Assembly (NCBI RefSeq): GCF_010726245.1
Contig: NZ_AP022561.1
Location: forward strand, 5,146,001-5,210,000
Length of the DNA stretch: 64,000 nt
From: Mycolicibacterium aichiense
GTDB lineage: Bacteria > Actinomycetota > Actinomycetes > Mycobacteriales > Mycobacteriaceae
Reading direction: 5' to 3'
The position numbers were made by a program, and so were the translations under genes. Below the pieces are notes generated by a model, which worked only from the letters and a program-made list of their open reading frames with translations, was not told the DNA's origin and did not search any database. Shown piece after piece: positions 11,438-36,898 of this stretch. Position 1 is the first letter of the stretch. Each line of letters starts with the position of its first letter.

Positions 11438-11669
11438 TCCGCATCCACCGCGGCTCCGTACCCGCCGCACCCGTCGTTCACAGCTCAAACGTGAGTTGCA
11501 CCACAGAGGGCGGGGTTTTCAGCGATGGATCAAATATTTGCTGTATTTGTAGTTGGCGTAACTTTTCGCTAGTCACGACCATGATCAATCCAGAGCCATT
11601 ATCTGCCACACGCAGCTATGCAAACGCAAGTTAGCTGCTGCAACCATCATTTGGACACCGGATGGATAG
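11438..11669. promoter_or_regulatory. Divergent promoter region between pta and EPS locus
   Basis: These 232 bp separate pta (minus) from the first EPS gene (plus) and are clearly more AT-rich than the flanks, especially 11520-11580 and 11590-11655. No gene was recognised. Both transcription units must start here. No conserved operator could be picked out with confidence. Confidence 0.5.
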
Positions 11670-13169
11670 ATGCCAAACATCGATGTGACGGCCACCGTCG
11701 CGCCGCGGCCCGTTACCGACCGCGAACTCCCAGACGATATTTCGACTGACGCCCCGGCCCGGCCAACCGGTCTCGGCGTGTTGCATCGAGGCATAGCGGT
11801 GGCATCGCTTTGCCTCGTCGCGTACGCATCCAGCTACGCACACAACTTCGCCGACGCGGTCGCCGGCTCTCGAGCCGCGTATCTGATCGTCCTGCCCGTC
11901 CTGGCTCTTCTGATCGCCGCCGGATACCGCACCACCTCACACGGGGTCGGCGACGGTGAATCGGACTGGATCGTGGCCACCTTGATCGCCGTTCTCGGTC
12001 TGGCGGCCATCTATCTGTTGATCGGCCGGATGCCGACGCTGTCAGCGTGGTGGCGTCTGGAGTCACTGGCGGTCCTGGTGTGGGCCGTGTGTTGCGTCGT
12101 CGTCTTGTTCGGTATGCGCCACGCCCTCACGATGTGGGCGTTGTGGCTTTTCCTGGCGTTCTTCGCCACGCCCGTGCCCTACCTGGCGGCCACGGCCGCC
12201 CTGGGCGGAACCCCTACCGCCGGCGCAGTGGTGGCCGCCGCGATCGGCGCGGTTGCCGTTTACCTGGCCACCCGCCCGCTTCCCACACAGCGTCGACTAG
12301 CCGCCACCGCCATCAGCCTCGTGGCCAGCGCACCGCTGGTGTTCGGCTGCGCATCCTGGTTTCTGCCCACGATCATCGTCACCGGCGGAGTCATTCCCGT
12401 CCTGTCGGTTCTCGGTGCCCGGCTTGCGCCGGATCGCCGCTCGGCAGACTCCACCGAACGCTCGATCAGCGCGGCAATGCCCCACCGTTCCTCGCGGACG
12501 GTGGGTTTCCTCGCCGTCGGCACCGCGATCCTGGCCGCCGCCGGGCTGCACCAGCACGAGGCGCCGACCCTGCGAACGGTCCCAACAGACTGGACGGCCC
12601 GCAGCGGTCTGTCCCGCGGTGCGTCCTATGACTTCGTCACCAACGTCGCCGGGCCCGGCTCCACACTGGTCAGATATGCCGTGCCGGCCGAAAAAGACAT
12701 GCCGACCGCCGCGGTAGACGTGCTCTCGACACCCAGCGAGGCCGTTCTGGACGACCTCGCCGATGTCGTCTGGTATCCGACCGCACGGCCGGTGAGCTAT
12801 CGAGCCGTCACCGCCTCCACCGCAATCCCGGCCGGCACCCGTGCCATCCACAGCGACGCCGACGCCGCCGCCGACGCCCGTGGGGTGGACTGGTATGCGC
12901 TGACCTGGACCCAACGCGCCGGCTCACTGTTCCAGCGGGTGACCGTGATCGTCAGCCAGTCGCTGACGGGTGATCAGGCACCCCCGGCACCCCAGCCGCC
13001 CGACGTCCTCGACGCATCCGTGGGCTCGTGGCTGTGGCTGTCACGTCAGCGGCCGCAGGGCCTCGATCACGTCGATCCGCTGGTGAGTCAGCGCGCCGAC
13101 AAGTTGGTGGCCGCGATCAGTGGCAGATCCGGCACCGCCTACCCCGGAGGCTCCCACAGACGTGACTGA
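11670..13169 (+). CDS. Unknown polytopic membrane protein, first gene of EPS unit
   Basis: A 499-residue protein not recognised as a named family. About eight to nine membrane helices (roughly residues 38-57, 69-86, 100-119, 130-148, 152-178, 184-203, 210-253 as two, 278-294) are followed by a soluble C-terminal domain of about 200 residues with a repeated V-x-Y-x-V strand pattern and a basic tail (GGSHRRD). That layout resembles exosortase/EpsI proteins of other EPS loci, but the exosortase Cys-Arg-His pattern was not found, so no function is assigned. ATG at 11670, GGATGG shortly upstream. It overlaps the GT2 gene by eight bases and leads a four-gene coupled unit, which suggests a role in polymer synthesis or export. 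Confidence 0.75.
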   Translation: MPNIDVTATVAPRPVTDRELPDDISTDAPARPTGLGVLHRGIAVASLCLVAYASSYAHNFADAVAGSRAAYLIVLPVLALLIAAGYRTTSHGVGDGESDWIVATLIAVLGLAAIYLLIGRMPTLSAWWRLESLAVLVWAVCCVVVLFGMRHALTMWALWLFLAFFATPVPYLAATAALGGTPTAGAVVAAAIGAVAVYLATRPLPTQRRLAATAISLVASAPLVFGCASWFLPTIIVTGGVIPVLSVLGARLAPDRRSADSTERSISAAMPHRSSRTVGFLAVGTAILAAAGLHQHEAPTLRTVPTDWTARSGLSRGASYDFVTNVAGPGSTLVRYAVPAEKDMPTAAVDVLSTPSEAVLDDLADVVWYPTARPVSYRAVTASTAIPAGTRAIHSDADAAADARGVDWYALTWTQRAGSLFQRVTVIVSQSLTGDQAPPAPQPPDVLDASVGSWLWLSRQRPQGLDHVDPLVSQRADKLVAAISGRSGTAYPGGSHRRD

Positions 13170-14589
13170 GACCCTGCAACCCGCGCAATTGCACCCGCGG
13201 TTTTCGGCCCACAATCTCCTCGGCGCCCGCACTCTGACCGCATTGGGTGTTGCCACCGCCGCCCTGATCGCCGGCGGCGTCGCATTCCCCTACGCTGTCG
13301 CACCCACCGTGACCGCACTGATTGCCGCCTTCTATCTCGCATCCAGCATCGACCGGAATTATCTTCTGCTGCGCGGGATTCGCTCGTCGGCACTCATCCG
13401 GGTCTCCGACGACGAGGCGCTGGCACTCACCGATGACGAGTTGCCGGTGTACACGGTGTTGCTGCCCGTCTACGACGAGCCCACCATCGTCGCCAACCTC
13501 CTCAACGGAGTGGGGCGACTGGACTACCCCAGAGACAAACTGGAAATCCTGCTGCTCGTCGAGGAAGACGATCTGCCGACCCAGATGGCATTGCTCGACG
13601 CGAATCTGACATCCATCCGGGTCATCATCGTTCCCCACAGCATGCCGAAGACGAAGCCGAAGGCGTGCAACTACGGTATGGCAACGCCCGGCCTTCGCGG
13701 TGAGCTGATGACCATCTACGACGCCGAGGACATCCCCGACCCGCTGCAGCTGCGTCGGGCCGTCGCCGCATTCCGACAGACCCCGGCCGAGGTCGGGTGC
13801 CTGCAGGCCAGGCTCGGCTACTTCAACGAGCGCCAGAATCTGCTGACGCGATTCTTCTCCTTGGAGTACGACCAATGGTTCGGCGTCGTGCTGCCTGCGG
13901 TGGAACGGGCCCGCTGCGTTGTGCCGCTCGGCGGCACCTCCAACCACATGCGCGCCGACGTGTGGAGGGAGATCGGCGGGTGGGACGAGTACAACGTGAC
14001 CGAAGACGCCGATCTCGGTGTGCGGCTTGCGCGCTGCGGCTACCGAACCCGGATCCTGGATTCGGTGACGCTGGAAGAGGCGAATTCCGATGTGGTGAAC
14101 TGGATTCGGCAACGGTCGCGCTGGTACAAGGGCTACCTGCAGACCATGCTGGTCCATCTGCGCAATCCCGCGGCCCTGCGCAGAGAGATCGGCGTCAAGG
14201 GCACCTGGCGCCTGATCAACATGACCGGCGGTGTGCCGCTTACCGCGGCGTGCAATCTGCTGTTCTGGTTCATTCTGGCGACGTGGATGTTGGGCCGGCC
14301 CCACGCCGTCGAAGTGGTGTTCCCACCGATGACCTATTACGTCTGTCTGGTTCTGCTTCTCATCGGCGCACCGATGTCGGTCTTCGTCGGCCTCATCGTC
14401 GCGCAGGCGTTGGGTAAACCCCACCTCTGGTGGGCGGCTGCGCTGGTCCCGCTGTATTGGTTCCTGCAATCCATTGCGGCGGTGAAGGCGTTCTATCAGC
14501 TGGTGACCAAGCCGTGTTTCTGGGAGAAGACCGTCCACGGCCTGTCCGAAAAACACACTGTCCCTGAGTCGACGGGAAATCTTTCGTGA
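13162..14589 (+). CDS. Membrane GT2 polysaccharide synthase (XagB / CesA-like)
   Basis: A 475-residue processive-type glycosyltransferase. Two N-terminal membrane helices (about 22-40, 46-62) precede a GT-A domain: LPVYDEP (101-107), KPKACNYGM, IYDAED (DxxD, 185-190), PLGGTSNHM, NVTEDADLG with Asp282, and QRSRW (317-321); three C-terminal helices follow (about 352-376, 391-417, 424-448). The IYDAEDIPDP, PLGGTSNH and TEDADLG strings are typical of XagB-type EPS synthases related to cellulose synthase. There is no PilZ domain, so direct c-di-GMP control as in BcsA is unlikely. GTG at 13162 follows GGAGG (13146-13150); GTG at 13120 is an alternative. It overlaps both neighbours and is probably partnered by the BcsB-like protein encoded next. 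Confidence 0.92.
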   Translation: MTETLQPAQLHPRFSAHNLLGARTLTALGVATAALIAGGVAFPYAVAPTVTALIAAFYLASSIDRNYLLLRGIRSSALIRVSDDEALALTDDELPVYTVLLPVYDEPTIVANLLNGVGRLDYPRDKLEILLLVEEDDLPTQMALLDANLTSIRVIIVPHSMPKTKPKACNYGMATPGLRGELMTIYDAEDIPDPLQLRRAVAAFRQTPAEVGCLQARLGYFNERQNLLTRFFSLEYDQWFGVVLPAVERARCVVPLGGTSNHMRADVWREIGGWDEYNVTEDADLGVRLARCGYRTRILDSVTLEEANSDVVNWIRQRSRWYKGYLQTMLVHLRNPAALRREIGVKGTWRLINMTGGVPLTAACNLLFWFILATWMLGRPHAVEVVFPPMTYYVCLVLLLIGAPMSVFVGLIVAQALGKPHLWWAAALVPLYWFLQSIAAVKAFYQLVTKPCFWEKTVHGLSEKHTVPESTGNLS

Positions 14590-16553
14590 GAGCACTTTTC
14601 GCCAGACTCGGCACCGTGAGTATGGTGTCGGTTCTGCTTGCGGCACCGATGCTGGGCAGCGCGCTCGCGCCCGCGTCGGCAGACCCGGACAGTGACGTGG
14701 TCGAGGTGATCTCCACTGAGCCCGCACCCGAGCCGCCACGGTTGATCGGGTGGCCCCAGCTGGGATTGCCGGACAGGATCGATCTACTGGGAGCCAATCA
14801 ACCCAGCGAGACCGCGATCCCGGTCCCGGCCGGCACGGTGCCGACGACGCTCAGTGGCGTCATCGGCGCGGTCGTCAACGTGGTCAGCGGGCGGGTGGAC
14901 GTTCTCGACGACCGCGGCATGGTGCTCGGCACCATCCCGGTACCGGCCGACGCGACGACCGTACCGTTCGAAATCGACATCAGCCCGGCGCTCGTCGCCA
15001 ACGGCATGGCCAAGCTGAGCTTCGTCATCCGCGACAACAACCAGAACGTCAACAATTGCACGCAGATACCGGCGCTTTCGATCAGCCAGCTCGCCAGTTC
15101 GTTCGCCGGGCCGCCGACCGACCCGGCATCGGTAGCCGACTACCTGCCGAGCTTTCTCGACAAGATCCTGATCAACGTCGGCCCGAATCCGACCTACGTT
15201 CAGCAGCAGGCGGCACTGGACTTGGTGGCACAACTGACCAAGAAGTACCGTCCGATGCCGGTCCGCATCGACGTCACCACCCAGGACATCGCACCCGCGC
15301 CGGAACCCACTGTGCGGGTGATCGACATCCGCGACAACAGCCAGCCAGGGGTGATCGTCGAGAACGCCGGCACGCCCGCGGCGACGCTGGTGATCAGCGG
15401 CACCGGACAGACACTGGCTCGACAGGTGCAGCTATTCGTCGACCAGAGAACGAATTTGGCCCAGGCACCGGCAGCCGTTGTGCTGTCGTCCAAGGACGAC
15501 ACCACACTGTCGAGCAACACCAAGACCTTTGACCAGCTCGGCGTCAACGGCCAGGCCTCGGTCCTCGGGGTCACCACCATCTACGCCGGCTTTGACGTGA
15601 GCGCCTTCGGCGCGGGTCCGATCAGCAGTGCCAGCGTCCACCTGATGGCCAAGTACACCCCGGTCGGCAGCGGCCAGGCATCGGTGCTGATCCGTTCGGG
15701 ATCAACGGTTTTGGCCACCCACCGGCTGGACAATTCGGGAACGCTGGACATCAGCGGCGTGATCCCTCCGGAAGAGATCGCCTCGAACGTCGGACTCGCA
15801 CTGGAGCTTCGCTACATTCCACAGCAGGAATGCGCCCCCCTCAATGACCGCATGACGTTCGCCCTGGACGGGCAATCGACGGTCACGGTTACGCCGGGTA
15901 CCAACAACCGCGGCGGATTCCCGGTATTGCCAATGGCATTCACCCCTGACTTCTACGTGACACTGGACAGTCCCGAATACATCAGGTACGCCGCGCAGGC
16001 CATCAATCTGATGGCGCAGCAGACGTCGGTGACTCTGCGCCCGAAAGTGACGACTTTCGGCCAAGCGTCCAGTTCCGGCACCGGATTGTTGGCCGTCACC
16101 AGCGGTGCCGCTCTGTCCAAGGCAGGCATGAAAGCTCCGCTGGTTCCCAACGGAGCAAGCGACGTCGGCGTCAACGGCGACCCCGCCACCGATCTCAATG
16201 TCAACGGGCAGGTCGGTGCCATCCAGGCGTTCACCTCCAACAACCGCACGGTGCTGGCCATCTCGGCCACCGGCGACTGGTCCCTGGTCGACGCGTCGTT
16301 CGACTACATCCGCGGCCTGCCCAGTCGCTGGGCATCGGTGGTCGGCGACGTGGTCGCCACCGGATCGCAGGGCCGTACGGTGAACATGTCCGTCAACGAG
16401 GGCGGCCCGATGGCCCGCCAGCCCAATCCCGGCGCCGCCTGGAAATGGTGGGCGTGGCTCAGTCTCGGCATCGGCACCGCCGCGCTCGTCATCGCCGCGA
16501 CAGTTCTGGTGATCCGGTTACGCAGGCGCACCACCACCAGCCCTGAGCTGTGA
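14586..16553 (+). CDS. BcsB-like exported, membrane-anchored protein (copy 1)
   Basis: A 655-residue protein with a signal peptide (cleavage likely after SADP region, about residue 33), a long beta-rich extracytoplasmic body, and one C-terminal membrane helix (about 620-643) ending in RLRRR. Layout and patterns such as VPVPAGTV, LSFVIRDNNQN-CTQIPALSISQL and the terminal TM match the cellulose-synthase regulatory subunit BcsB family, which guides a nascent glycan leaving the GT2 channel and binds it via carbohydrate-binding-like domains. It starts at a GTG overlapping the GT2 stop (GTGA) and its own stop overlaps the next gene in the same way. A diverged paralogue sits at 22715-24691. Polymer specificity is unknown. 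Confidence 0.85.
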   Translation: MRALFARLGTVSMVSVLLAAPMLGSALAPASADPDSDVVEVISTEPAPEPPRLIGWPQLGLPDRIDLLGANQPSETAIPVPAGTVPTTLSGVIGAVVNVVSGRVDVLDDRGMVLGTIPVPADATTVPFEIDISPALVANGMAKLSFVIRDNNQNVNNCTQIPALSISQLASSFAGPPTDPASVADYLPSFLDKILINVGPNPTYVQQQAALDLVAQLTKKYRPMPVRIDVTTQDIAPAPEPTVRVIDIRDNSQPGVIVENAGTPAATLVISGTGQTLARQVQLFVDQRTNLAQAPAAVVLSSKDDTTLSSNTKTFDQLGVNGQASVLGVTTIYAGFDVSAFGAGPISSASVHLMAKYTPVGSGQASVLIRSGSTVLATHRLDNSGTLDISGVIPPEEIASNVGLALELRYIPQQECAPLNDRMTFALDGQSTVTVTPGTNNRGGFPVLPMAFTPDFYVTLDSPEYIRYAAQAINLMAQQTSVTLRPKVTTFGQASSSGTGLLAVTSGAALSKAGMKAPLVPNGASDVGVNGDPATDLNVNGQVGAIQAFTSNNRTVLAISATGDWSLVDASFDYIRGLPSRWASVVGDVVATGSQGRTVNMSVNEGGPMARQPNPGAAWKWWAWLSLGIGTAALVIAATVLVIRLRRRTTTSPEL

Positions 16554-18286
16554 CCACGGTCGTAGCCGCTCCGATCCAGGCCGACTCCGACCAGTCGGCC
16601 CAGGGCAGCACGCGCTGGCCGGGGTTGCTGCTCTTCACCGTCTTGACTGCGCTCTACTGTGCGGTCGGGACCGTTCTGGTGCTGCGGTACAACATCTTCG
16701 AGCCGGATGCACCCAATCGGGTGGCCAACGCCGGGTTTGCGATCTACGCCCGCGATCCACACCTGTCGGCCATCGGGTTCGTCTGGAATCCGCTGCCCAG
16801 CATGGTCGACATACCGTTCGTGGCACTCAGTCACTGGTGGCCGGCGCTGAAGTACTACGGGATCGCCGGAGTCATCCAGAGTTCGCTGTTCATGGCCGGC
16901 GCCGCGCTCATGGTCCGGGGTATCGCGCTCGACCGCGGACTCCCGACGGCGTGGCGGTGGGTCGCCGTCGGCGCGGTGGCCCTGCACCCGATGATCATTT
17001 TGTACGGCGGCTCCGGCCTGAGCGAGGCGGCGGAGATGTTCTGCCTGGTGTGGGCTGTACGGCACTTGATGCGATGGTGCGATAGCGAGCGCGTCGGGGA
17101 CCTCGCCTGGGCCGGCATCGCTTTGGGCTGTGGATATCTCACCCGATACGAGGTGGTCCCGGCTGCCGCCGGCGCCGCCCTGTTGGTCGGTGTGGTCACC
17201 TGGCATCGCTCGCGCGGTTCCGACCGTCTGCAGTCCACCGTCCTCAACCTGGGCATCATCGGATTCCCGATCGCCGTTACCATCCTCATCTGGGCAGTCA
17301 CCGGCTGGATCATCAACGGGGAACTGTTCGCCACCTTCTCCTCCCAGTACGGCAACAGCAGCCAGGTGGCACAGCGGTTGGCACATGTGGGTCGCGGCGA
17401 CCCCGGTTCCGGATGGCTGGTCGTCTCCGCACGGCTCTTCGGCATGCAACCGCTGACGGGAATCGCCGTTGCGACGGCGGTGCTGGTCGCGGTGTTCCGC
17501 AGACAGGTCAGCACTGTCGTGCCGGTGGCAGTCCTCGGTGCCACCCTGACGTTCGCCGCAGTGGCACAGCATCTTTCGATGACGTTCGGGTGGTTCCGCT
17601 TCTATCTGCTGGCCATCCCGATGGTGGTCTGCATCGCGGTTGCCTGTTGGACGTCGGCGCGGCCGGGCGCTGCCCGCAGCACGGCGGATAGGCGTTCCAC
17701 CCAAGCCGCCGCTGTCTTACTCACCGCGTCGGTGGTGGTGGCGATCCCGGTGACGACGCCGCTGATCGTCAACGAGGACATCGCGTACGGGCAGCTGGAA
17801 TCCAGCTTCATCTCTCTGGTCGATCCGGTCGGCCATCCTCCGGAGAAGCAGTCCGCACGCCGGCGCCTGATCAGTGAGCGGCAACTCGCCGCCTGGCTCG
17901 ACGCGAAGAAGCTTCCGGACGGCGCGGTGTTGATGGATACCTTCTTGGCGTGGGGGGTTTGGCTGTCCTCGGACCACCCGAAACAGTTCGTGATCACCAG
18001 TGACTACGATTTCTCGGCGGCCTTGAACAGGCCGTGGGACATGGGAATCCGCTACATCGTGGCGACCAATCCCCGGCTCAATATCCCCGACGCGATCAAC
18101 CGCCGCTACCCGGACCTGTGGTCTACCGGCGCGGGGATCGGCAGGCTGATCTACTCGGCAGACGGCGTGACAAGCGACGAGATGTTCCGCGTCTACGAGG
18201 TCATCGGCAAGCCCGTCGATCCGGTCAGCACCCCTGGAGCGCCTCGTCCGGTCTCAGCTGTGGAGCCGGTCAAACCACCGCGCTGA
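16550..18286 (+). CDS. GT-C-type membrane glycosyltransferase (GT39/ArnT-like)
   Basis: A 578-residue polytopic protein with about ten membrane helices and a C-terminal extracytoplasmic domain. The first outer loop carries acidic residues (IFEPDAPNRVANAG, Glu51/Asp53) and the second ARDPHLSAIGFVWNPLPS, a pattern seen in GT-C enzymes that use polyprenyl-phosphate sugars. GLSEAAEMF and GYLTRYE are further GT39-like features. GTG start at 16550 overlaps the BcsB-like stop (GTGA). As the last gene of the coupled unit it may add or transfer a sugar to the polymer on the outside of the membrane. Substrate cannot be told from sequence. Confidence 0.75.
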   Translation: MTTVVAAPIQADSDQSAQGSTRWPGLLLFTVLTALYCAVGTVLVLRYNIFEPDAPNRVANAGFAIYARDPHLSAIGFVWNPLPSMVDIPFVALSHWWPALKYYGIAGVIQSSLFMAGAALMVRGIALDRGLPTAWRWVAVGAVALHPMIILYGGSGLSEAAEMFCLVWAVRHLMRWCDSERVGDLAWAGIALGCGYLTRYEVVPAAAGAALLVGVVTWHRSRGSDRLQSTVLNLGIIGFPIAVTILIWAVTGWIINGELFATFSSQYGNSSQVAQRLAHVGRGDPGSGWLVVSARLFGMQPLTGIAVATAVLVAVFRRQVSTVVPVAVLGATLTFAAVAQHLSMTFGWFRFYLLAIPMVVCIAVACWTSARPGAARSTADRRSTQAAAVLLTASVVVAIPVTTPLIVNEDIAYGQLESSFISLVDPVGHPPEKQSARRRLISERQLAAWLDAKKLPDGAVLMDTFLAWGVWLSSDHPKQFVITSDYDFSAALNRPWDMGIRYIVATNPRLNIPDAINRRYPDLWSTGAGIGRLIYSADGVTSDEMFRVYEVIGKPVDPVSTPGAPRPVSAVEPVKPPR

Positions 18287-18294
18287 GGTACCGC

Positions 18295-19260
18295 TCACTG
18301 CGGCAACCCGCCGCCGCAGTCCCGCCGCCAGTCGGCGAAGGCCTCGCGAAGCGAATACTGCGCGGTGAAGCCGATGTCGGCGAGACGCTCCGAGCTGATG
18401 TTGGTATCGAACTGCAGTTTCTGGATACGTCTGGGGTGCAGGCCGAAACGTGCTCCCGTCGGATCGACCACCGCGAACGGCGTGGCCGCAGCCAGGGCGA
18501 GGCGGTAGGGAACAGTCCGCGGGTGGCGGTCCCATCCCCAGGCCGCGTTGATGGCGTCGACGTGGTCGTGGATCGTGGTCGGCTGCGGATAGACAGCATG
18601 GTAGGTCACGTGCGGCCCGTCGTCTTCGGTGAGCAGGGTCAACAGCCGAACCATGTCTTTGAGGTAGATACAGCTTTTCACGGTGTCGTCGCGGCCGATG
18701 TAGGCGAAGCGGCCCTTGCTGAGGCCGCGGATCAACCGCCGCATGTTGCCGGTGTCGCCGGGGCCGAACACCACGCCCGGACGCACGATGCGCAGGCGCC
18801 GTCCCGGCTTCTCGGCCTGCCACGTCCGCAGGATCTCCTCTGCCTGCAGCTTGCTGGCGCCGTACGCGGTGTCTGCGTCGCCGAAGTCGCTTTCACTGCG
18901 GCGCCACGGACCAGAAGCAAAGGCCATCATCGAACTGGTGAAGACGATGTTGTCCACACCCGCTTCACCGGCGGCCTGACACAAGCGACGTGTCGCCTCG
19001 GCATTGTTGGCGAAGTAGTCCCGCCACGGAAAACCGGGTTCCTTGGACAGCGCGGCCAGGTGCACGATCGTCGGCGGGCACGGCCGGGGCAAGTCAGCCG
19101 CGGTGATGGTCTTCAGATCCAGACGCAGCGAGTCAGCGGCCGGCTTGGCGTCACGGTCGATTCCCACCACGGGTCGGCCGATCTCGCGCAGGTGCGAGAC
19201 CAACGCACTGCCGATGAAACCCGCACTGCCCGTGACCATCACGGCCCCGTCAGTCGTCAT
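18295..19260 (-). CDS. NAD-dependent sugar epimerase/dehydratase
   Basis: A 321-residue extended short-chain dehydrogenase. The NAD motif GSAGFIGS is near the N-terminus, and the active site is TSSM with YGASK (YxxxK). The body has VRPGVVFGPGDTGNMRRLI and a C-terminal substrate domain. It probably changes the stereochemistry or oxidation state of an NDP-sugar for the EPS. ATG at 19260. It runs against the GT-C gene with only eight bases between the stops. A non-coding stretch of about 790 bp lies upstream of it. Which sugar it acts on is not known; decarboxylase or reductase activity is equally possible for this family. Confidence 0.88.
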   Translation of the reverse strand: MTTDGAVMVTGSAGFIGSALVSHLREIGRPVVGIDRDAKPAADSLRLDLKTITAADLPRPCPPTIVHLAALSKEPGFPWRDYFANNAEATRRLCQAAGEAGVDNIVFTSSMMAFASGPWRRSESDFGDADTAYGASKLQAEEILRTWQAEKPGRRLRIVRPGVVFGPGDTGNMRRLIRGLSKGRFAYIGRDDTVKSCIYLKDMVRLLTLLTEDDGPHVTYHAVYPQPTTIHDHVDAINAAWGWDRHPRTVPYRLALAAATPFAVVDPTGARFGLHPRRIQKLQFDTNISSERLADIGFTAQYSLREAFADWRRDCGGGLPQ

Positions 19261-22690: not shown

Positions 22691-22714
22691 CTGACCGCCG
22701 ATTTCGTCGGCAGA

Positions 22715-24962: not shown

Positions 24963-24978
24963 CGGGTCGATTGACCCG
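24963..24978. promoter_or_regulatory. Palindrome 1 in EPS intergenic region
   Basis: CGGGTC-GATT-GACCCG is a perfect 6-bp inverted repeat with a four-base spacer. It overlaps a TTGACC sequence that could be a -35 element. Role unproven. Confidence 0.4.
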
Positions 24979-25017
24979 CCGCGGCTGTAAGGACTACCTA
25001 GAGCGGCCGCGAAATAA

Positions 25018-25033
25018 TTACCTTGATAGGTAA
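25018..25033. promoter_or_regulatory. Palindrome 2 in EPS intergenic region
   Basis: TTACCT-TGAT-AGGTAA is a perfect 6-bp inverted repeat with a four-base spacer, the same layout as palindrome 1, in an AT-rich stretch. It looks like a dimeric regulator's site. No regulator gene is encoded in the locus, so the binding protein would have to come from elsewhere. Confidence 0.45.
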
Positions 25034-25134
25034 GTCAGGGCAACCCATCGTGATTCCCCGCGCTATTGTCAGCAAGGAGCAGGCACGTCTGACCGGGCTT
25101 GCTAGTCCTTTGGTGCCGACAAGTCTGGTGGAAT

Positions 25135-26511: not shown

Positions 26512-26546
26512 TGACCGGCAGATGACGTCGGCGGGATGAGCGGCGG

Positions 26547-27311: not shown

Positions 27312-27324
27312 TGGGGGAAGACAT

Positions 27325-28176: not shown

Positions 28177-28201
28177 ACCGGGCCTCGCACGCCGATATTT
28201 G

Positions 28202-29128: not shown

Positions 29129-29243
29129 TGGCTCCGCTTCTGACCGATCCGGGGTCCCAACCGGCGTGGTGGGAACGTCCATAGTGTACAGCGCACCGCA
29201 TTTGCCCCTGCCCGATGTATTGGCGACATTCGCGAAATTGTGA

Positions 29244-30332
29244 CTACGAAATCTCAACCGGGGCATTAAAGGCCGAGTGCGCGGCGAATCCGGGCTCGGC
29301 CTCGAGAAGCGCCTGGACAACCCTCGCGGGAGGCCGTCGATCATGCGCCATTGTGGCGAGACCGCGGTAACAAGCCATATGCAAAGCAATTCCCGTCGAC
29401 CAATCCCACCGGGAGAGGTCTGGCAGTCCCGCAGGTGGAGTCCGACTGAGTGCGTCCTTCAAATCTTGCGCGGTCAACGGGCCGTCGTACAGCATCACCC
29501 ATTCCTCGCCCACCTCGCGCGCAATGACCTCGTTGAAAGGACTGCGCCGGGCAAGAACCGGGCGCCCAATACTGAGCGCGTAGACCAGCGCTCCCGAGTT
29601 GTGCATATGCGTGTACGGAAGGCACACGATTCGGTGATTGAAAATCTCGGCGGTGAGTTCGTCATCTTCCAGGTGCCTGATGTCGAGCACCGCGGAAGGG
29701 ACGTCTGCCACGAGCGCGCGCAGCTCACGTTCGTAGGATTCGTCGATCGCCCGCCCGGCAATCGTCAGCGTTGCATCCGCATCGCGTGCCGCGGTGATGA
29801 GGGTTTCGATCCCTTTGTATCGCCGCAGCAATCCGAACAGGATGACGTCTCGGTGGGGCTCCCGTGGCGTCAGGTCGACACCTTGTTTTTGCAGCCAGCC
29901 ACGGTAGTCCCCGTGCAGAATGACCACCCCGCGCGCTGGGTCGTTGAGCTCCGACTCGTTGAGGTAGATACGGAGGGCGAACATTCGCTCCAGAGCGCGC
30001 GACAGCAACCGCTCGAAGCCTCGGTCTTGGTCGTGGGGCGCGAGGTCGTGCACGGTCAAAACGACAGGCACTCGGCGCGCACGCAACCGCAGAAGCAGTA
30101 TCGCCACCAAGACCCGCTTGACCATCGTCTTCGCTCGCCCGTTGGCGCGATACAGCTGCTCAGGCCAGTGCACATGGAAGACGTCAGGACGAAAGAAGAG
30201 GGCGGTGCGCCACGATAGTGGCTGCACGTCTACCTGATCACTCAGATCGGTGACCAGCTGCTGCAGGTATGGGTTGTCATGGTGCTTGAGCGGTCCCGTC
30301 GACATCAGGACCTTCAGTCGTGGTGCACTCAT
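29244..30332 (-). CDS. GT-B-fold glycosyltransferase (GT4-like)
   Basis: A 362-residue GT-B enzyme. The N-terminal domain has VFHVHWPEQLYR and VLTVHDLAPHD; the C-terminal domain has VILFGLLRRYKGIETLI, LTIAGRAID and HNSGALVYALSIGRPVLA, a typical donor-binding region of GT4-like transferases that act on lipid-linked sugars. ATG at 30332. It is followed by DUF6492 on the same strand, and divergent from the Wzy-like gene across 212 bp (30333-30544), where a CCATCGCGATGG palindrome at 30502-30513 is the only notable element. Sugar specificity unknown. Confidence 0.88.
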   Translation of the reverse strand: MSAPRLKVLMSTGPLKHHDNPYLQQLVTDLSDQVDVQPLSWRTALFFRPDVFHVHWPEQLYRANGRAKTMVKRVLVAILLLRLRARRVPVVLTVHDLAPHDQDRGFERLLSRALERMFALRIYLNESELNDPARGVVILHGDYRGWLQKQGVDLTPREPHRDVILFGLLRRYKGIETLITAARDADATLTIAGRAIDESYERELRALVADVPSAVLDIRHLEDDELTAEIFNHRIVCLPYTHMHNSGALVYALSIGRPVLARRSPFNEVIAREVGEEWVMLYDGPLTAQDLKDALSRTPPAGLPDLSRWDWSTGIALHMACYRGLATMAHDRRPPARVVQALLEAEPGFAAHSAFNAPVEIS

Positions 30333-30544
30333 CGGCTTCCCCTCTCGCGCTGCGCACTTCGGACAGCAACCACCAGAACGCCCGCCACGTGACGGTAGCT
30401 TGGAAGCGTCGCGGCGGCCAAGGAAAGCCCGGTGAAGCAGGGAGCGCGTTGCCGATAGTGATGCTCACCAGCCGGTAACATCCACACTTCCCGTGCGTGC
30501 ACCATCGCGATGGCACGGTCCGGGCAGTGCGAGCGGAGGGACCG

Positions 30545-31834
30545 ATGCACCGGAGAGGCCGGCTGTTCATCACGTGTGATGCAGCAGCGGTGTTGCTCAT
30601 CGTCATTCTGTGGGTCCGGGCAATCGGCTCGCTCATCGCCCTATCGATCACTGCAGAAAAGGTGTTCGTCCCGATCGGTGCAGATCCGATTTGGCCGCCC
30701 GCCGCCAACGCCGTCTCCAAACTGTTCTACCTGCTTGCGGTCCTTCTGTGCGTCGGCATCATCATCTTCCGCATCAACGACGTCACCCGGCCGGGCCTGT
30801 GGCGGCTCGCTGTCCTGCTGGCGCCCTGGCTGTACATCATCATTCGCAACCTGTATTCCGGCAGCTGGCCAACCCCCGAGGGTGTGCTCTACGTGGTGCT
30901 GATTTTGGCGCTGGCAGCGTTGCGCCCCCGCCCTCGTGTGCTCATCGCGCTGGGAGTGCTCGTGGTGCTGACGGCGGCCATCGCGATCGCGTTCGGTGTC
31001 TTGCTGCCGGATGCCGGCCGAGCGCATCTTGCGGAAGGGGTGTTGAGCGTCCGCCCCGACAAGGCGGTGTTCCCCTCCCTGGGATTGCTGCAGGGAATGT
31101 TCACCCAGGAGAACAGCCTGGGTGTGTATCTTTCCGTCGGGATCGCAGCGGTGGTCCTGCTGCCGCGTTGGTGGCTGCGGTTCCCGGGGTTGGCGATCGT
31201 GGCATTCGCCATCGCGTGGTCGTCGGCTCGTAATTCCATGTTCGCAGCGGCGGTTTCCCTGCTGTTGGGTGCCGTTATCTGGGTTATTGCCGAGTTCGGC
31301 TGGCGCCGTGTGGCGTCAACGGTGGCCCGTCTCGCAACCGGCGCGTTACTTGTGGTCATGTGCGTGGTGCCGTTGACGGGATGGCTGTCGTCCAGCGGAT
31401 GGGATCCCGATGCCTACACCGGCCGTGGAGTCATCTGGAACGGGTCGCTGACGCATTGGGTCGAGCGGGCGCTTCTGTTTGGTGGCGGCAGGGATTGGTA
31501 TTCGCGAATCACGAAGAGCGAAACAACCACTCTGATCTCGGGGGCCTACTCAGGCCACAATCAGTTCGTACAGTTCGTCGCCACCGGCGGGGCTGTGCTC
31601 GCCGTCCTCGCTCTCGGGTCGCTGCTCGTGCAGATGTATGTCATCACGGCGCCGAAAAGCCGCTACTTGGTAATCGGCGCAATGATTGTCGCCGCGATTG
31701 CCGTCAGTGGATGGCTGGAGGTGCCGCTGGGTTATGTCGATTGGTCGACGAACTGGACCGTCACAATCGTTCCACTTGCGATCTTGTTCTTGGCGCGACG
31801 TGAAGAAGTACACCAAGAAAGCCCTAGCCGGTGA
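30545..31834 (+). CDS. Wzy/O-antigen-ligase-like polymerase
   Basis: A 429-residue polytopic protein of the O-antigen polymerase/ligase (Wzy_C, WaaL) type with about ten to twelve membrane helices and a long periplasmic loop containing LSSSGWDPDAYTGRGVIWNGSL, YSRITKSE and SGHNQFVQF, where the family's Arg/His active residues occur. ATG at 30545 is preceded by a strong GGAGGG (30535-30540). It would join lipid-linked EPS units outside the membrane. Its stop overlaps the GH6 gene start (GTGA), so polymerase and glucanase are made together. Wzy sequences diverge greatly, so the call rests on topology and context. Confidence 0.8.
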   Translation: MHRRGRLFITCDAAAVLLIVILWVRAIGSLIALSITAEKVFVPIGADPIWPPAANAVSKLFYLLAVLLCVGIIIFRINDVTRPGLWRLAVLLAPWLYIIIRNLYSGSWPTPEGVLYVVLILALAALRPRPRVLIALGVLVVLTAAIAIAFGVLLPDAGRAHLAEGVLSVRPDKAVFPSLGLLQGMFTQENSLGVYLSVGIAAVVLLPRWWLRFPGLAIVAFAIAWSSARNSMFAAAVSLLLGAVIWVIAEFGWRRVASTVARLATGALLVVMCVVPLTGWLSSSGWDPDAYTGRGVIWNGSLTHWVERALLFGGGRDWYSRITKSETTTLISGAYSGHNQFVQFVATGGAVLAVLALGSLLVQMYVITAPKSRYLVIGAMIVAAIAVSGWLEVPLGYVDWSTNWTVTIVPLAILFLARREEVHQESPSR

Positions 31835-32997
31835 GCGATCGGCGAGCCGGTCCGATTTCGTCATGGTGGCGGCGCGTCAAGCGAGGAGAAAAGCGCACCG
31901 TTTTCGCTACGGGTGCGGCTTCAGTCTTCGTGATCCTGCTGGCTTTCGCTGCAGTCGCCTATTCGGGGCAACGGTCAGATGGCCCCGCTTCGGGAACGAT
32001 AGAGGGCAGTAAGCCGGTCAGCGCGACGTTGTATCGCGATCCACAACTGCAGGCGATCGCGGCGGCGCGGGAGGACTCCCGATTCAATCCGATCGCCGAA
32101 ACGCCGCAAGCCAAGTGGTTCTCCGATTGGTCCACGACTACGACTGTCCAGCATGACATTCGCGACTACCTCTGGGGCGCGACGTTGGCGAATGCAATCC
32201 CGACGATCGTGCTCTACCGGATCCCTCATCTCGATTGCGGCGGCCCCACGCCCGGTGATCAGGTCTACACCGGTGCACGCGATGAGCAGGAGTACCGGGA
32301 CTGGGTCGACGGCGCCGCCGCCGCGTTGATGGGTCATGTCAACGCGATCGTCATCCTCGAACCCGACGCACTTCCGCAGCTGGGACAGTGCGAGCAGGGC
32401 GATCGCCTGGGCACGCTGCGATATGCAGTCGACACGCTTTCGGCGACGGGGGCGCGGGTCTATATCGATGCAGGACATGAGAACTGGCTGAGCGCAGCCG
32501 AGGCCGCGGACCGATTGAAAAAGGTCGACGTCGACAAAGTTGCCGGCTTCAGCCTCAACGTGTCGAACTTCAACACGACAGAAGGCGAAGTCCGGTATGC
32601 CGAGAGCGTGCGTATCGAACTCAGCAAGCTCGGCATCGACGACGCGCACTACGTGATCGACATCAGCCGAAACGGCGCAGGCACCCAAGACACCACCTGC
32701 AACCCGCCGGGAGCGCGATTGGGACAGCCACCTCAGCTGTTCCACGGCGGCACACTCGATGGGCTGCTGTGGGTGAAGAATCCCGGAGAGACCGACGGAT
32801 CGGCCTGTCGGGGTGGCCCGGACGTTGGGTTCTGGCCAGCGGCCGCGCTGGGCCTACTCGGGCTGGATGGGGCGGCGGCACGCGATCGAGGTGCTCCGGG
32901 ATGGATCGGATACTCGGTCGCGGCCGTTGCCGCACTGGCGGTATTGGCGGCCTTGATCGGCTGGGTCGTCGTCAAGAGGCGCCGAACCGCTCGGTGA
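31831..32997 (+). CDS. Membrane-anchored GH6 glucanase
   Basis: A 388-residue glycoside hydrolase family 6 protein. Catalytic-region motifs are AKWFSDW, YRIPHLDCGG (Asp135), ILEPDALP (Asp179), VYIDAGHENW, GFSLNVSNF, VIDISRNGAG, and VKNPGETDGSACRGGPD (Asp322). GH6 enzymes cleave beta-1,4-glucan with inversion. The Arg of the usual RDC motif is Leu here, so altered specificity is possible. Helices at about 24-46 and 358-380 (followed by KRRR) anchor it at both ends, a layout not seen in secreted cellulases. It overlaps the Wzy-like gene. A glucanase in an EPS locus usually trims or releases polymer, as the GH8 BcsZ does in cellulose operons and GH6 CslZ in Streptomyces csl loci. Confidence 0.9.
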   Translation: MSDRRAGPISSWWRRVKRGEKRTVFATGAASVFVILLAFAAVAYSGQRSDGPASGTIEGSKPVSATLYRDPQLQAIAAAREDSRFNPIAETPQAKWFSDWSTTTTVQHDIRDYLWGATLANAIPTIVLYRIPHLDCGGPTPGDQVYTGARDEQEYRDWVDGAAAALMGHVNAIVILEPDALPQLGQCEQGDRLGTLRYAVDTLSATGARVYIDAGHENWLSAAEAADRLKKVDVDKVAGFSLNVSNFNTTEGEVRYAESVRIELSKLGIDDAHYVIDISRNGAGTQDTTCNPPGARLGQPPQLFHGGTLDGLLWVKNPGETDGSACRGGPDVGFWPAAALGLLGLDGAAARDRGAPGWIGYSVAAVAALAVLAALIGWVVVKRRRTAR

Positions 32998-33049
32998 GAC
33001 CGGAGACCACATGCCGATCTTTCCTTCTTCGCTCCGTGGAGATGACACC

Positions 33050-33100
33050 ATGACTCCTGTGCACCGCATCGGGCTCGGCCAGTCATGTTCGAAGGAATAA
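33050..33100 (+). CDS. Possible 16-residue leader peptide before wzx
   Basis: ATG at 33050 opens a 16-codon frame (MTPVHRIGLGQSCSKE), with GTGGAG about eight bases upstream. Its TAA at 33098-33100 falls just after GAAGGAA, which is the ribosome-binding site of the flippase gene starting with TTG at 33104. Translation through it could therefore help initiation at that weak start. Too short to judge by codon use; may be chance. Confidence 0.3.
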   Translation: MTPVHRIGLGQSCSKE

Positions 33101-33103
33101 AGG

Positions 33104-34645
33104 TTGGCGCCGCCGAATTTTGCCCGCAACACACTTCTCGGCGCCATCTCCGGTGCCGCCGTCACTCTCTCCGGCTTCGTCGGCAGCGCGATTGCCGCCC
33201 GACTGCTCGGGCCTGACGACCTTGGCGTCGTTGCCTACATCATCTGGTGCGTCACGCTCACCGTGGCGGTCGCGACCGTGGGCAGCGATGTCGTACAGCA
33301 GCGATTCATCCCCAGCCTCCGTGCCATGGGCAGAGACGATGAGGTAGCCGCCCTGGTCGGAGCGATCCTGCGGCTGTCCGTGGCTGTCGCGATCGTGGCT
33401 GCGGTGGTCTTGTTCTTCTACCTTAGCGGGCCAGGCAGAGGTGCACTCACCGGGCTTTCCGATACCTCCCAGATCGTCGTCATCGCAGTCGCTTTGACGT
33501 GGTTCATCTGCTGGAGACTGTCTGACCTGTATCTCTACAATCTCAGAGGCGAGCAGCAATTCGACAAGCTCGCTCGCATCTCCTCCGTCTCGGCTCTGCT
33601 GAGGGTGACAACAACGGTGCTCGGCGCCTGGCTGTTCGGGGTCCCAGGTGCTCTCGCCGGCAATATCGCCGCCACTATCCTCCCCGCCCGCCGGGCCTTG
33701 CCGCTGCTACGCAACAAGCCCCGCGTCCGTCCGGACCTCAGACAAGAAGTCTTCAGGTTCACGCTGGTGAGCTGGATGATCGCGCTGACCGGCCAGCTGT
33801 TGTTCGGCCGAACGCAGATCGTCTTCCTCGAGCACTACGCCACGCTCGCCGCCGTTGGCCTGTTCGCGGCCGCACTGACTGTGGCCGAGATGGCGTCGCA
33901 ACTGCCGCAGCTCTTCCTGTCGGCCCTGCTCCCACGTTTCAGCGAGCAGAGCGGTCAAGGCGCCCACGACCACATGATGCGCCTGTACCGGACGATGACC
34001 GCGCTGATGGCGTTGGTGATGTTTCCGCTCTGCCTCGGCCTTGCGGCGATCACGCCGGTATTGGTCCCGCTGATCTTCGGTGATGAATTCGCCGAAGCCG
34101 CCTCGGTTGCATCGATACTGCTGATCGTCGTTGGGATCTGCAGTGTCGGCGGTACCAACAACAACCTCATGCTGAGCCTGAGTAAGACCAAGATTCTCGT
34201 GGTGTCCAACGCCGTTGGCCTGGTCGCTCTGATCCTGCTGAGCTTCCTGGTGATACCCCGATACGGGTTGATGGGAGCAGCCTGGTCACGAGGGATCGTC
34301 CAAGTACTGGTCATTGCCATCGAAATCATTTGCACGGCAATACAAACCGGATTCCACCCACCGTATCGCGCGCTGGGAGCGATAACACTTGCCGCGGTGG
34401 CACAGGGCGCGGTGGCGTATGTGGTGGTCTTAAACATAGGCGGCGCATGGTCGTTGGTGGTCGCCTTACCCGCCGCGGTCATCACCTACCTCATCGGTCT
34501 TCGAGTATTTGCGATACTGCCGATGGTCGACCCCACGCTGCCGAGTCGACTCATGTCGCATACCCCTGCGCGGCTCGAACCGCTGATTTCCCGGGTCCTG
34601 CGGCTGCTGGTGCCGCCTACCGCGGGGCGCGCAGAACAGGATTAG
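33104..34645 (+). CDS. Wzx-type polysaccharide flippase
   Basis: A 513-residue oligosaccharide flippase of the MATE/MOP superfamily with about fourteen membrane helices. The start is NFARNTLLGAISGAAVTLSG (a common Wzx N-terminus), followed by AARLLGPDDLGVVAY and, in the middle, LFGRTQIVFLEHYATLAAVGLFA. It moves lipid-linked repeat units across the membrane for Wzy. No ATG is available: TTG at 33104 follows GAAGGAA (33091-33097) at proper spacing. It lies 106 bp after the GH6 gene, in the same direction as Wzy-like and the two sugar enzymes downstream. Confidence 0.93.
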   Translation: MAPPNFARNTLLGAISGAAVTLSGFVGSAIAARLLGPDDLGVVAYIIWCVTLTVAVATVGSDVVQQRFIPSLRAMGRDDEVAALVGAILRLSVAVAIVAAVVLFFYLSGPGRGALTGLSDTSQIVVIAVALTWFICWRLSDLYLYNLRGEQQFDKLARISSVSALLRVTTTVLGAWLFGVPGALAGNIAATILPARRALPLLRNKPRVRPDLRQEVFRFTLVSWMIALTGQLLFGRTQIVFLEHYATLAAVGLFAAALTVAEMASQLPQLFLSALLPRFSEQSGQGAHDHMMRLYRTMTALMALVMFPLCLGLAAITPVLVPLIFGDEFAEAASVASILLIVVGICSVGGTNNNLMLSLSKTKILVVSNAVGLVALILLSFLVIPRYGLMGAAWSRGIVQVLVIAIEIICTAIQTGFHPPYRALGAITLAAVAQGAVAYVVVLNIGGAWSLVVALPAAVITYLIGLRVFAILPMVDPTLPSRLMSHTPARLEPLISRVLRLLVPPTAGRAEQD

Positions 34646-34727
34646 ACCTATCTGCCCGTCCCCGGGGTACTAGGCTTGGCTCGAGAATGAACCGGTAGGG
34701 GCGGGGCTCCGCGCAGAGAGGCTGTCG

Positions 34728-35816
34728 ATGATCCGTATCCTCCTGATCGGTGCAGGAGCCGTGGTTGAGGAGCTCTACCAATTCCCTTTGCAGCGACTGG
34801 AAAAGGCGAAGGCCGTCGAGGTCTTGGGCGTCGTCGACCCCAACGAATCACGAGGGCGCCAGATCGCGTCTAAGTTCAAGCGGGCGCGCGCGTACCCTGA
34901 CTGCGCGGCGGCGTTTCGGGACGGCTCATACGATCTCGCCATCATCGCCTCACCGCCGGCTCTGCATGCCGAGCATGCGTGTGCGGCATTCGAACACGGT
35001 TGCCATGTGCTGTGCGAGAAGCCCATGACGACAACGGTGGCCGATGCGGATCGCATGAACGCGGCAGCAGCGAAAGCCAACAGGACGCTGGGGGTGGCGT
35101 ATCCCCGGCGGTTCTACTCGAATTTCGCCGACGTCGCACGACTCGTCGCGAACGGCGACCTCGGGGAGGACCTCGAGTTCACCTACCGCGAGGGGGGCAC
35201 CTATGGCTGGAAGGCGGCCACCGACGCCGCATTCCGACGCGAACGTTCGGGCGGCGGCGTGCTGCTGGACATCGGCGTGCACATGCTGGATCAGTTGGCC
35301 TGGATTTTCGGCGATCCGGTGGTAACTCGCTCTTTCGACGACAGTTTCGAAGGTGGAGTCGAGACTAATTCGCTTCTGTCGCTGGTGTTTCCGCGAGGCC
35401 GCGGCGTCATGCAGGTCAGCTGGGAGTACCCGCTGAATAATGGTCTGCGGATCCGGGGTTCCTCAGGTGAGGTGATTCTGGACAATGCCGACATTCGCAC
35501 CTATCGCCGCAAGACCCCTCAGGGATGGTCGCTGGTACCGGCCGAGACATCGTGGCCCGTGGACCTTGCGCCAACGGGCGGCAAGCGGACCCGGCCCGCC
35601 GGTTACGGCCCGTGCTTCGAGGCCGAGTTGATCGCCATGCTCAGATGCATTCGCTACGGCGAAGCATTTCCCGTGACCGGCCTCCAGGCCGCGAGTGTGC
35701 AAGCCGCCATTGACCAGGCCTACGAGCGAGCCGAGCCGCTGGAGTGTCCCTGGCTGCCGGAAGACGAACAGGTGGCCGCGCGGGCCAAGCACTGGAAGGC
35801 CGGTCAGCCGCAATGA
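34728..35816 (+). CDS. Gfo/Idh/MocA-family sugar dehydrogenase
   Basis: A 362-residue NAD(P)-dependent oxidoreductase. The Rossmann motif is LIGAGAVVEELY near the N-terminus, followed by the family signature CEKPMTTTVADADRM and the catalytic-region GGVLLDIGVHMLDQLAWIFG with its conserved histidine. It is expected to oxidise or reduce a sugar or NDP-sugar hydroxyl for the EPS. ATG at 34728 has GAGAGG upstream. Its last base overlaps the next gene (ATGA), so the two sugar enzymes are co-translated and may catalyse successive steps. Between the flippase and this gene (34646-34727) nothing else was seen. Confidence 0.9.
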   Translation: MIRILLIGAGAVVEELYQFPLQRLEKAKAVEVLGVVDPNESRGRQIASKFKRARAYPDCAAAFRDGSYDLAIIASPPALHAEHACAAFEHGCHVLCEKPMTTTVADADRMNAAAAKANRTLGVAYPRRFYSNFADVARLVANGDLGEDLEFTYREGGTYGWKAATDAAFRRERSGGGVLLDIGVHMLDQLAWIFGDPVVTRSFDDSFEGGVETNSLLSLVFPRGRGVMQVSWEYPLNNGLRIRGSSGEVILDNADIRTYRRKTPQGWSLVPAETSWPVDLAPTGGKRTRPAGYGPCFEAELIAMLRCIRYGEAFPVTGLQAASVQAAIDQAYERAEPLECPWLPEDEQVAARAKHWKAGQPQ

Positions 35817-36898
35817 AACCCATCGCCATCATCGGGGCCGGGGGCTTCGTCGGCGCCCGTCTCATAGAACGTGCCGAACTTCGCGGCGACATACCCCTCG
35901 TGCCCATCGTCCGATCCCCGCGCAGTCAGGGTCGGTTGGCGCGGTTCGGCATTCGCACCGTGCATGGTGATGCTTCCGATCCGGCATCTCTGGTTCCGCT
36001 ACTGAAGGGGTGCGGAACGGTGGTGAACCTGACCATGGGAGACGACAAGCGCACGGTCGGCGACGCTCAGTCCATTCACGCCGCATGCCAGAAGGCGGAC
36101 GTTCCCCTGTTCGTGCACATGAGTTCCGCTGAGGTATTCGGCCGGGCAGAGACTCACGGTCTGAACGACGATTCGGTACCAGATGGAAAGCACTGGATGG
36201 AGTACGCCCAGGCGAAATCCGCTGCCGAAGCGTGGTTGCGCTCCCAGTCCGCCGGGCCGGTGCAGACAGTCATCCTGCGACCGGGACTGATCTGGGGCCC
36301 AGGGTCGGGATGGCTCGTGGAGCCGGCCAAGGCGTTGATTGACGGCACCGCGTACCTGCTGAACGGCGGGCGCGGGATCTGCAATCTGATCCACGTGGAC
36401 AACCTCATCGAGCACCTGGTTCAACTGGCGAAGTCCGCTGCGCCCCGCTCCGATGTCTTCAACATCGCCGACAACGAGACGCTCACCTGGGCCGATTACT
36501 ATCGCGCCATTGCACACGAAGTGGGCGTTGATCCATCGACGATACGTCTGCTTGGCGATGCAAAGTACGACGAGAGCAACTTCCAGAAAATCCAGCAGAT
36601 CCTCAACATTGCGCCGGCCCGCGCCATCAAACGTCGACTCAGCGCCGGCACCAAAGGCCGGCTGAAGCAGCAGTTGCAGGATCGCATCTCGCCACCGATT
36701 ACCGAACCTCAGCCCATCGAGCCCGAACCTACTGTCACCAAACAGCTTTGGTGGCTTCAAGGCACCGCAAGGAAACTACCGTCGACGAAGTTCGCCGAGC
36801 AGTATCCCGAGCTGCAGCTCAAGCCGTTTGATGAACTGATGACGGCAGCCGGAAAGTGGCTGCGCTTCGCCGGTTTCGAGAATTCGGACCGCACTTAG
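35813..36898 (+). CDS. NAD-dependent epimerase/dehydratase
   Basis: A 361-residue extended SDR with [12 protein letters not shown] (NAD binding), HMSSAEVFG and YAQAKSAAE (YxxxK), and [14 protein letters not shown]. The C-terminal part is longer than in most family members and ends with a low-similarity tail ([15 protein letters not shown]...), which may be a membrane- or partner-contacting extension. ATG at 35813 overlaps the dehydrogenase gene by four bases. It is the last EPS gene: its stop shares four bases with the stop of fgd on the other strand, which marks the right edge of the locus. Confidence 0.88.

Follow-up and report, generated by a model that had tools for sequence, protein, structure and literature searches.

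Given that the pta-fgd interval of the window (the whole 64-kb stretch analysed, G000:C1:5146001-5210000 of the 5.93-Mb single-contig Mycobacterium genome G000) is occupied by genes for extracellular polysaccharide (EPS) production, the question arises whether these genes make up one pathway that mixes synthase-type with Wzx/Wzy-type parts, as a preliminary description of the locus had proposed, or separate gene sets that come and go at this site. From comparison with other Mycobacterium genomes we consider it quite probable that the pta-fgd junction is a permissive site exchanging glycan gene sets, that two independent sets stand there in the window, and that one of them (genes G to Q) is an exchanged cassette resembling a capsule type. 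Curated-family anchors and the map of open reading frames (ORFs) bear out that the locus lies exactly between pta and fgd, with 17 ORFs, every one of them open, from 11670 to 36898, where some sixteen genes had been counted before. The features are as follows:

8166..9356, minus strand: ackA, left flank (PF00871, 462.6 bits; curated cut-off passed)
9353..11488, minus strand: pta, left anchor (NF004167, 927 bits, over cut-off)
11670..13169, plus strand: A, membrane protein with at least 8 transmembrane (TM) helices and a C-terminal soluble domain (AF2 model, pLDDT 79.7)
13162..14589, plus strand: B, membrane GT2, BcsA/PgaC-like (PF13632, 91.6 bits; ORF open from 13120)
14586..16553, plus strand: C, periplasmic BcsB-fold protein with a C-terminal TM anchor (fold searches by Foldseek and VIA)
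16550..18286, plus strand: D, multi-TM enzyme, likely GT-C-like (PMT_2; PF13231, 24.0 bits, just under the cut-off of 26.1; 7 TM by hydropathy)
18295..19260, minus strand: E, SDR/epimerase (PF01370, 100.7 bits)
20051..22690, plus strand: F, fusion of an aldo/keto reductase (AKR) with a pyranose-oxidase-like GMC oxidoreductase (PF00248, PF05199)
22715..24691, minus strand: G, second BcsB-like protein (32% identical to C, full length)
25099..26511, plus strand: H, Wzz and BY-kinase-like co-polymerase (PF02706, 32.3 bits, and TIGR01007, 113 bits, both over cut-off)
26547..27311, plus strand: I, WecG/TagA/CpsF GT26 (PF03808, 127 bits)
27325..28176, plus strand: J, soluble GT2 (PF00535, 55.3 bits; ORF open from 27250)
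28202..29389, minus strand: K, DUF6492 protein, start uncertain (overlaps L; PF20102, 82.7 bits)
29244..30332, minus strand: L, likely GT4-like, just below Pfam cut-offs (PF13692, 25.0 against 27 bits)
30497..31834, plus strand: M, likely Wzy-like polymerase, 8 TM (PF04932, 28.8 against 31.7 bits, E 1.2e-6)
31831..32997, plus strand: N, GH6 with TM segments at the N- and C-terminus (PF01341, 174.9 bits)
33104..34645, plus strand: O, Wzx-type flippase, 11 TM (PF13440, 56.4 bits against 23)
34728..35816, plus strand: P, Gfo/Idh/MocA sugar oxidoreductase (PF01408, 93 bits)
35744..36898, plus strand: Q, SDR, likely start 35813, overlapping fgd by 4 bp (PF13460, 61.8 bits; PF01370, 59.9 bits)
36895..37905, minus strand: fgd, right anchor (TIGR03554, 708 bits against a cut-off of 420)
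22700..36900, no strand: segment read as a replaced cassette (nucleotide identity to the three nearest relatives 69-79% where alignable; module I 86-91%, inside fgd 96%)

Genes A to D, here called module I (11670-18286), all lie on the plus strand, genes G to Q, module II (22715-36898), are of mixed orientation, and E and F stand between the two. The last ORF, Q, ends at 36898 on the plus strand and meets fgd, which ends at 36895 on the minus strand, tail to tail, giving the 4-base overlap already noted. Of the earlier family calls, GT2, WecG/GT26, Wzz/BY-kinase-like and flippase stand, having passed the Pfam cut-offs, and the Wzy-like call falls short of that of PF04932. The GH6 gene, the AKR-GMC fusion, the two SDRs, the Gfo/Idh/MocA protein and the second BcsB-like gene are additions to that description.

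We searched 248 Mycobacterium genomes for the module I GT2, fgd and pta, and both anchors were among the matches listed in at least 216. In 200 of the 216 the two lie within 100 kb of each other and count here as adjacent; in the other 16 they are far apart or on separate contigs. Their order and strand are kept in all 200 adjacent pairs, which agrees with the minus-strand order fgd-pta-ackA claimed for the window. The gap between them, by contrast, ranges from a slight overlap to 29 kb: measured between hit ends, it is below 200 bp in 97 pairs, 0.2-2 kb in 28, 2-6.3 kb in 30, 6.3-9.5 kb in 28 and 9.5-30 kb in 17. With 97 of 200 pairs practically closed, this synteny survey upholds the view that the locus is an addition, missing from most of the genomes examined, and not a universal feature. 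Since ackA and pta are no more than 30 bp apart in all 19 named loci that have both (loci picked by their GT2), the pta-fgd junction is where the variation lies.

The two modules are separable. An orthologue of the module I GT2 sits at the site in 37 of the 200 pairs, namely in 27 of the 28 gaps of 6.3-9.5 kb and 10 of the 17 gaps of 9.5-30 kb. We examined 23 of the intervals that bear this GT2, 13 of them 6.3-9.5 kb long and the other 10, among them that of the window, larger; A, the GT2, a BcsB-like gene and D occur together in every one, A being shortened in G024. These module counts come from tblastn; ORF picking overlooks some genes, among them a BcsB-like one in G167 and the GT2 in G039. 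Module II is absent from all 13 GT2-bearing intervals of 6.3-9.5 kb that were fetched, out of 27. A Wzy homologue is present in 14 of the 17 large intervals (>9.5 kb), that is, in G000, G024, G053, G151, G039, G052, G167, G170, G221, G138, G102, G114, G014 and G180, all located via fgd and pta and not via BcsB; the queries used found none in the large intervals of G081, G042 and G166. Seven of the 14 Wzy-bearing intervals carry module I and seven do not. Modules I and II lie side by side in the window, G024, G053, G151 and G039, and G052 and G167 have module II without module I at the site. Clusters of the module II kind (type II) also occur elsewhere: G082 has one at 5.29 Mb (Wzx, Wzy, GH6, a 33% K-like gene, J, I, H, G, the GMC part of F, and E), with module I at its own pta-fgd site at 0.56 Mb, and G229 has one on a contig other than that of fgd, both having been read in 20-kb stretches that end before P and Q. 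Two further kinds of Wzy-bearing cluster occupy the pta-fgd site in other genomes, type III (G102 and relatives), with an epimerase, an FkbM methyltransferase, Wzx, Wzy and three GT4 genes, and type IV (G180, G014), with Wzy, GT4s and an SDR; Wzx is represented by 24-28% matches only in G039, G167, G014 and G180. Because the modules occur apart in several genomes, each without the other, we regard them as two sets, in place of the single mixed system first proposed.

How module II came to stand here is suggested by comparison with the nearest relatives. In the rpoBC tree the window genome groups with G024, G053 and G151 (support 100/100; rpoBC identity 97.5-97.6%). The idea that the nearest relative has an empty site, to which fgd and pta had pointed by way of G093 (fgd 100% identical), was dropped, as its rpoBC is only 95.1% identical against about 97.5%. 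The other three are nearer by rpoBC and carry the locus, and the empty site of G093 therefore belongs to a more distant lineage and not to a sister. Against these three relatives, protein identity is 85-96% for A to D, 93-94% for E and 90-92% for F, and then 60% for G, 67-68% for H, 71-72% for J, 70-71% for M, 69-70% for N, 73-74% for O, 80-83% for P and 71-73% for Q; I and L are absent from all three, and K is just 31-32% identical there. The nucleotide sequence follows the same course, with aligned pieces 86-91% identical in module I and 86-88% in F, and alignable pieces 69-77% identical from 22.9 to 32.9 kb and 78-79% from 33.0 to 37.3 kb, whereas G053, compared as a control with G151 and with G024, shows about 89-90% identity throughout, save for a stretch of A that is missing in G024. 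At the fgd border, identity to G053 in 250-bp windows rises from 68 over 89 to 96% (at 36535, 36785 and 37035), against 84-94% between G053 and G024 in the same windows. Closer counterparts of some cassette genes are found in other genomes: G052 has I, J and K at 83-84% identity, I (85%) and J (84%) have counterparts in G082, and L is 77% identical to a G167 gene. Exchange by homologous recombination, as well as its direction, we infer.

Several observations weigh against this reading. The four-genome clade (G000, G024, G053, G151) was tested for seven genes, E, O, J, G, M, N and H, and the trees of E and O keep it (O, the Wzx, with support 95.8). Rejection is weak for J (p-AU 0.035) and G (0.044), values that carry no correction for the seven genes, and absent for M (0.27), N (0.29) and H (0.36). 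Support inside this clade in the rpoBC tree is weak (81/18) as to which lineage changed. For the module I GT2, holding the nine sampled rpoBC-clade members together is rejected (p-AU 8.4e-5), which speaks for the reading; the result depends, however, largely on G018 and G184, which have a GT2 of only about 50% identity and share a long branch with G146 (G146, G133, G009 and G166 being flagged as long too), and the tree fits exchange of module I between lineages and is not clean proof of it. The Wzy-like M, moreover, scores below its family cut-off, and smaller intervals at the site also carry genes unrelated to glycans, so that the site is permissive and not glycan-reserved. The case for a swap thus lies mainly in the identity steps and whole-gene differences, and less in the trees.

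An alternative is that module II was inherited vertically together with module I in this clade and diverged faster in the window genome, through diversifying selection on a surface structure, with no import of a cassette. The Wzx tree that holds the four genomes together, the failure of the M, N and H trees to reject the clade, and the neighbouring E and F, plainly common to the relatives, would all be expected under such a history. It leaves unexplained, however, the sharp steps at fgd and at the F/G border, where the other three genomes remain flat at 89-90% among themselves, and the absence of I and L and the 31-32% identity of K in those three relatives when counterparts at 77-85% exist in G052, G082 or G167. 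We therefore judge vertical divergence unlikely.

Much less probable still is a single hybrid pathway, in which the Wzx/Wzy product would be passed to the GT2/BcsB machinery or the reverse. The two modules do adjoin in five genomes and both contain BcsB-like proteins, yet half of the Wzy-bearing intervals lack module I, both modules together would not fit into any of the 27 intervals of 6.3-9.5 kb that bear the GT2, and in G082 the modules occupy different chromosomal places. Least credible of all is a decaying or silent locus without product: mixed gene orientation and the lack of a regulator family in the locus could be taken that way, but all 17 ORFs are open, the GH6 and GT2 motifs are present, and relatives retain most of the genes, with proteins 59-96% identical. 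Exchange of separate glycan sets at the pta-fgd site accordingly remains the reading that we favour, and we turn to the two sets themselves.

The core of module I is the pair formed by B and C. The start of B at 13162 matches the equivalent start in relatives, and the protein shows TED at 294, QRSRW at 331 (QxxRW) and, replacing the DxD of BcsA, DAED at 201. Its closest solved proteins are cellulose synthase subunit A; the Pfam scan found no PilZ domain on it, and it failed TIGR03030 (cellulose synthase catalytic subunit) with 55.8 bits against a cut-off of 699.1. The fold searches, which cover C (Foldseek and VIA) and A (Foldseek), find a full BcsB fold in the predicted structure of C, at 13% identity to E. 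coli BcsB. The earlier label BcsB-like is thus upheld for C by fold and not by Pfam, which gives no convincing BcsB support in any of the 25 aligned BcsB-like members. Among the matches listed, a BcsB-family match lies within 6 kb of the GT2 in 39 of 40 orthologous rows, the exception being G176, which has both genes on separate contigs. The same holds for 36 of 50 rows of a GT2 group that is 43-50% identical (in which the G111 row, a 73% fragment, should be placed with the orthologues instead) and for none of the 10 rows of a 38-42% identical group. A profile built from C and G has matches at E<=1e-30 in 144 of the 248 genomes. In G098 (C1:5234642-5238621), a tandem pair of BcsB-family genes stands next to a GT2 of the paralogous group. 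Gene A accompanies the GT2 in all 23 intervals, but the window member has no Pfam family at E<=1 and its AF2 model no fold match in the PDB at E<=0.001 (Foldseek), and other A members show scattered weak Pfam matches only (best E 0.0072). An assignment of A as exosortase/EpsI-like, an idea from topology alone, found no support in the Pfam and fold searches and was abandoned.

Between the modules, E is common to type II clusters and 78-94% identical in seven other intervals. F forms a single ORF of 879 aa in the window, where it is inverted relative to the three nearest relatives, and a single ORF in these as well; its two parts are separate neighbours in G052 and G081, and in G082 and G229 the GMC part alone was detected, short partial matches having been filtered out. 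The 790 bp between E and the inverted F (19261-20050) hold no convincing gene and compare with a spacing of only about 30-50 bp in the three relatives; they may be a trace of the inversion. Within module II, the likeness of G to C rests on their pairwise 32% identity and on a tblastn search with C in which the G-type gene of G052 comes up at 32% along its whole length, the C and G profile itself including G and other module II members; the G protein is 87% identical in the source of P0002. H has no Tyr in its last 40 residues, where a C-terminal Tyr cluster was looked for. The Wzy proteins of cluster types III and IV score above the PF04932 cut-off (61 and 49.6 bits). The blocks EPDA, DCG, RNGAG and TDG are present in N, its closest solved chains are 1uoz (putative cellulase, E 2.9e-53) and 1up0 (Cel6/CelA1), and it adjoins the Wzy-like gene in all nine type II clusters (the window, G024, G053, G151, G039, G052, G167, G082 and G229).

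Taken together, these assignments suggest how the locus may work. The junction would gain, lose and exchange surface-glycan gene sets along with some other genes. On the evidence of its families and fold, module I would be a synthase-type system: the membrane GT2 would polymerise and extrude the polymer, the BcsB-fold C receive it on the outer side of the membrane, and A and D serve in accessory or modifying roles. Module II would build a repeat-unit polysaccharide by the Wzx/Wzy route. The first, lipid-linked sugar would be made in trans, by a WecA-type enzyme or by any one of the genome's four PF02397 enzymes; the GT26, GT2 and GT4 proteins, and perhaps K, would extend the chain on the lipid-linked acceptor, O would flip it and M polymerise it under the control of H. 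N would trim a beta-1,4-type linkage: its acidic GH6 blocks are kept and it adjoins the Wzy-like gene, suggesting that part of the glycan is beta-1,4-linked. Sugars would be supplied by E, F, P and Q, and the fusion in F of a reductase with a pyranose-oxidase-like enzyme, separate ORFs in G052, suggests a redox step on a sugar in which the two work as a pair.

The most novel point is the constant BcsB-like partner of mycobacterial Wzx/Wzy sets: all 14 Wzy-bearing intervals carry a BcsB-like gene distinct from module I's C, either besides it or where module I is missing. A Wzx homologue also occurs in 10 of 15 stretches fetched around BcsB-family matches, a sample chosen by BcsB and hence biased. 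Because of the constant pairing, it is tempting to speculate that mycobacterial BcsB-fold proteins serve more than cellulose-type synthases, and that this separate branch is a standing part of Wzx/Wzy systems, a periplasmic crown or conduit taking the polymer towards the mycomembrane, which we presume the window host to have, in the place of the Wza/OPX proteins of Gram-negative bacteria; we offer this as a tentative suggestion, and a rather doubtful one.

As had been stated before, the locus contains neither an initiating sugar-phosphate transferase nor a regulator: PF02397 occurs only at four sites elsewhere in the genome, and Pfam scans found no regulator family among the 17 proteins. Nor do these proteins include NRPS/PKS genes, as for the lipid part of glycopeptidolipids or lipooligosaccharides. 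Insertion by a mobile element was rejected, since the window contains no tRNA and nothing that matches Rfam, and none of the 17 proteins belongs to an integrase or transposase family in Pfam. A plasmid origin was rejected likewise, the module II BcsB-like protein having no plasmid match at E<=1e-10; the module I GT2 has 11 plasmid matches at E<=1e-40, all below 60% identity.

Individual genomes show further variation around these anchors. The junction of G178 (L048) holds an aminotransferase III, an amino-acid permease, an APH-like kinase and GntR, with same-family ORFs there in several genomes. That of G147 has a GH38 alpha-mannosidase-like gene (L043:413-3406), as has G220 in the form of a same-family 997-aa ORF; G202 has a luciferase-like protein and an endonuclease/exonuclease/phosphatase-family protein, and G136 a GT4. 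In G016, G022, G069, G073, G150 and others, pta is just 63-64% identical and fgd and pta are distant or on separate contigs: here the neighbourhood or pta itself is replaced. Two fgd copies occur in G200 (0.78 and 1.18 Mb) and in G089 (equal-scoring, on one contig). A contig titled as a metagenome-assembled genome (MAG) of Bifidobacterium breve (L085) contains fgd and module I genes whose identity is of the mycobacterial level (82% for fgd); its label or binning looks wrong.

What these gene sets may mean is best seen against the literature and known systems. A review states that the cellulose pathway of M. tuberculosis biofilms has not been identified, that BcsA and BcsB seem to be absent from this species and that putative parts exist in some other mycobacteria (PMC6364259), and a 2025 study calls the mycobacterial cellulose machinery unknown (PMC12167362). 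Our literature search, with preprints and most subscription journals outside it, found no Wzx/Wzy or BcsB glycan locus at the mycobacterial fgd-pta site. Candidate genes for surface polymers can be named from this locus: the GT2/BcsB-fold pair and several Wzx/Wzy sets, of which one kind includes a membrane GH6. If glycan sets are exchanged at a fixed site, mycobacteria would also have a counterpart of capsule typing, and surface type could be predicted from sequence.

Module I resembles the BcsA-BcsB cellulose synthase in its processive GT2 with TED and QxxRW and in the adjoining BcsB-fold partner, but differs in lacking PilZ, in failing the TIGR03030 model, in its extra partners A and D, and in the low identity of C to E. 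coli BcsB. N shares with Cel6/CelA1 (1uoz and 1up0, which we take to be Rv0062 of M. tuberculosis) the GH6 domain and, in the alignment, the EPDA, DCG and RNGAG blocks, but it has TM segments at both ends and a constant Wzy-like neighbour. Among actinomycetes, wps-1 to wps-3 of Actinoplanes missouriensis are Wzx/Wzy clusters with predicted Wzx, Wzy and Wzz proteins, as in module II, whereas the terms BcsB, cellulase and GMC do not occur in the main text of that paper (PMC13390465). Elsewhere in bacteria, Wzx/Wzy loci for EPS or capsule lie between fixed housekeeping anchors, as does the pneumococcal cps locus between dexB and aliA. The locus described here departs from these in having no initiating transferase, no Wza-type family among its 17 products, and a BcsB-like protein (in type II clusters also a GH6) as a standing member. 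It shares with them the flippase, the polymerase-like protein, the Wzz/BY-kinase-like co-polymerase and the GT26 of module II, as well as variable transferases between fixed flanks and identity steps like those of allele replacement. The apparent cassette swap, found even against the closest relatives examined, would thus resemble the capsule-type swapping of other bacteria.

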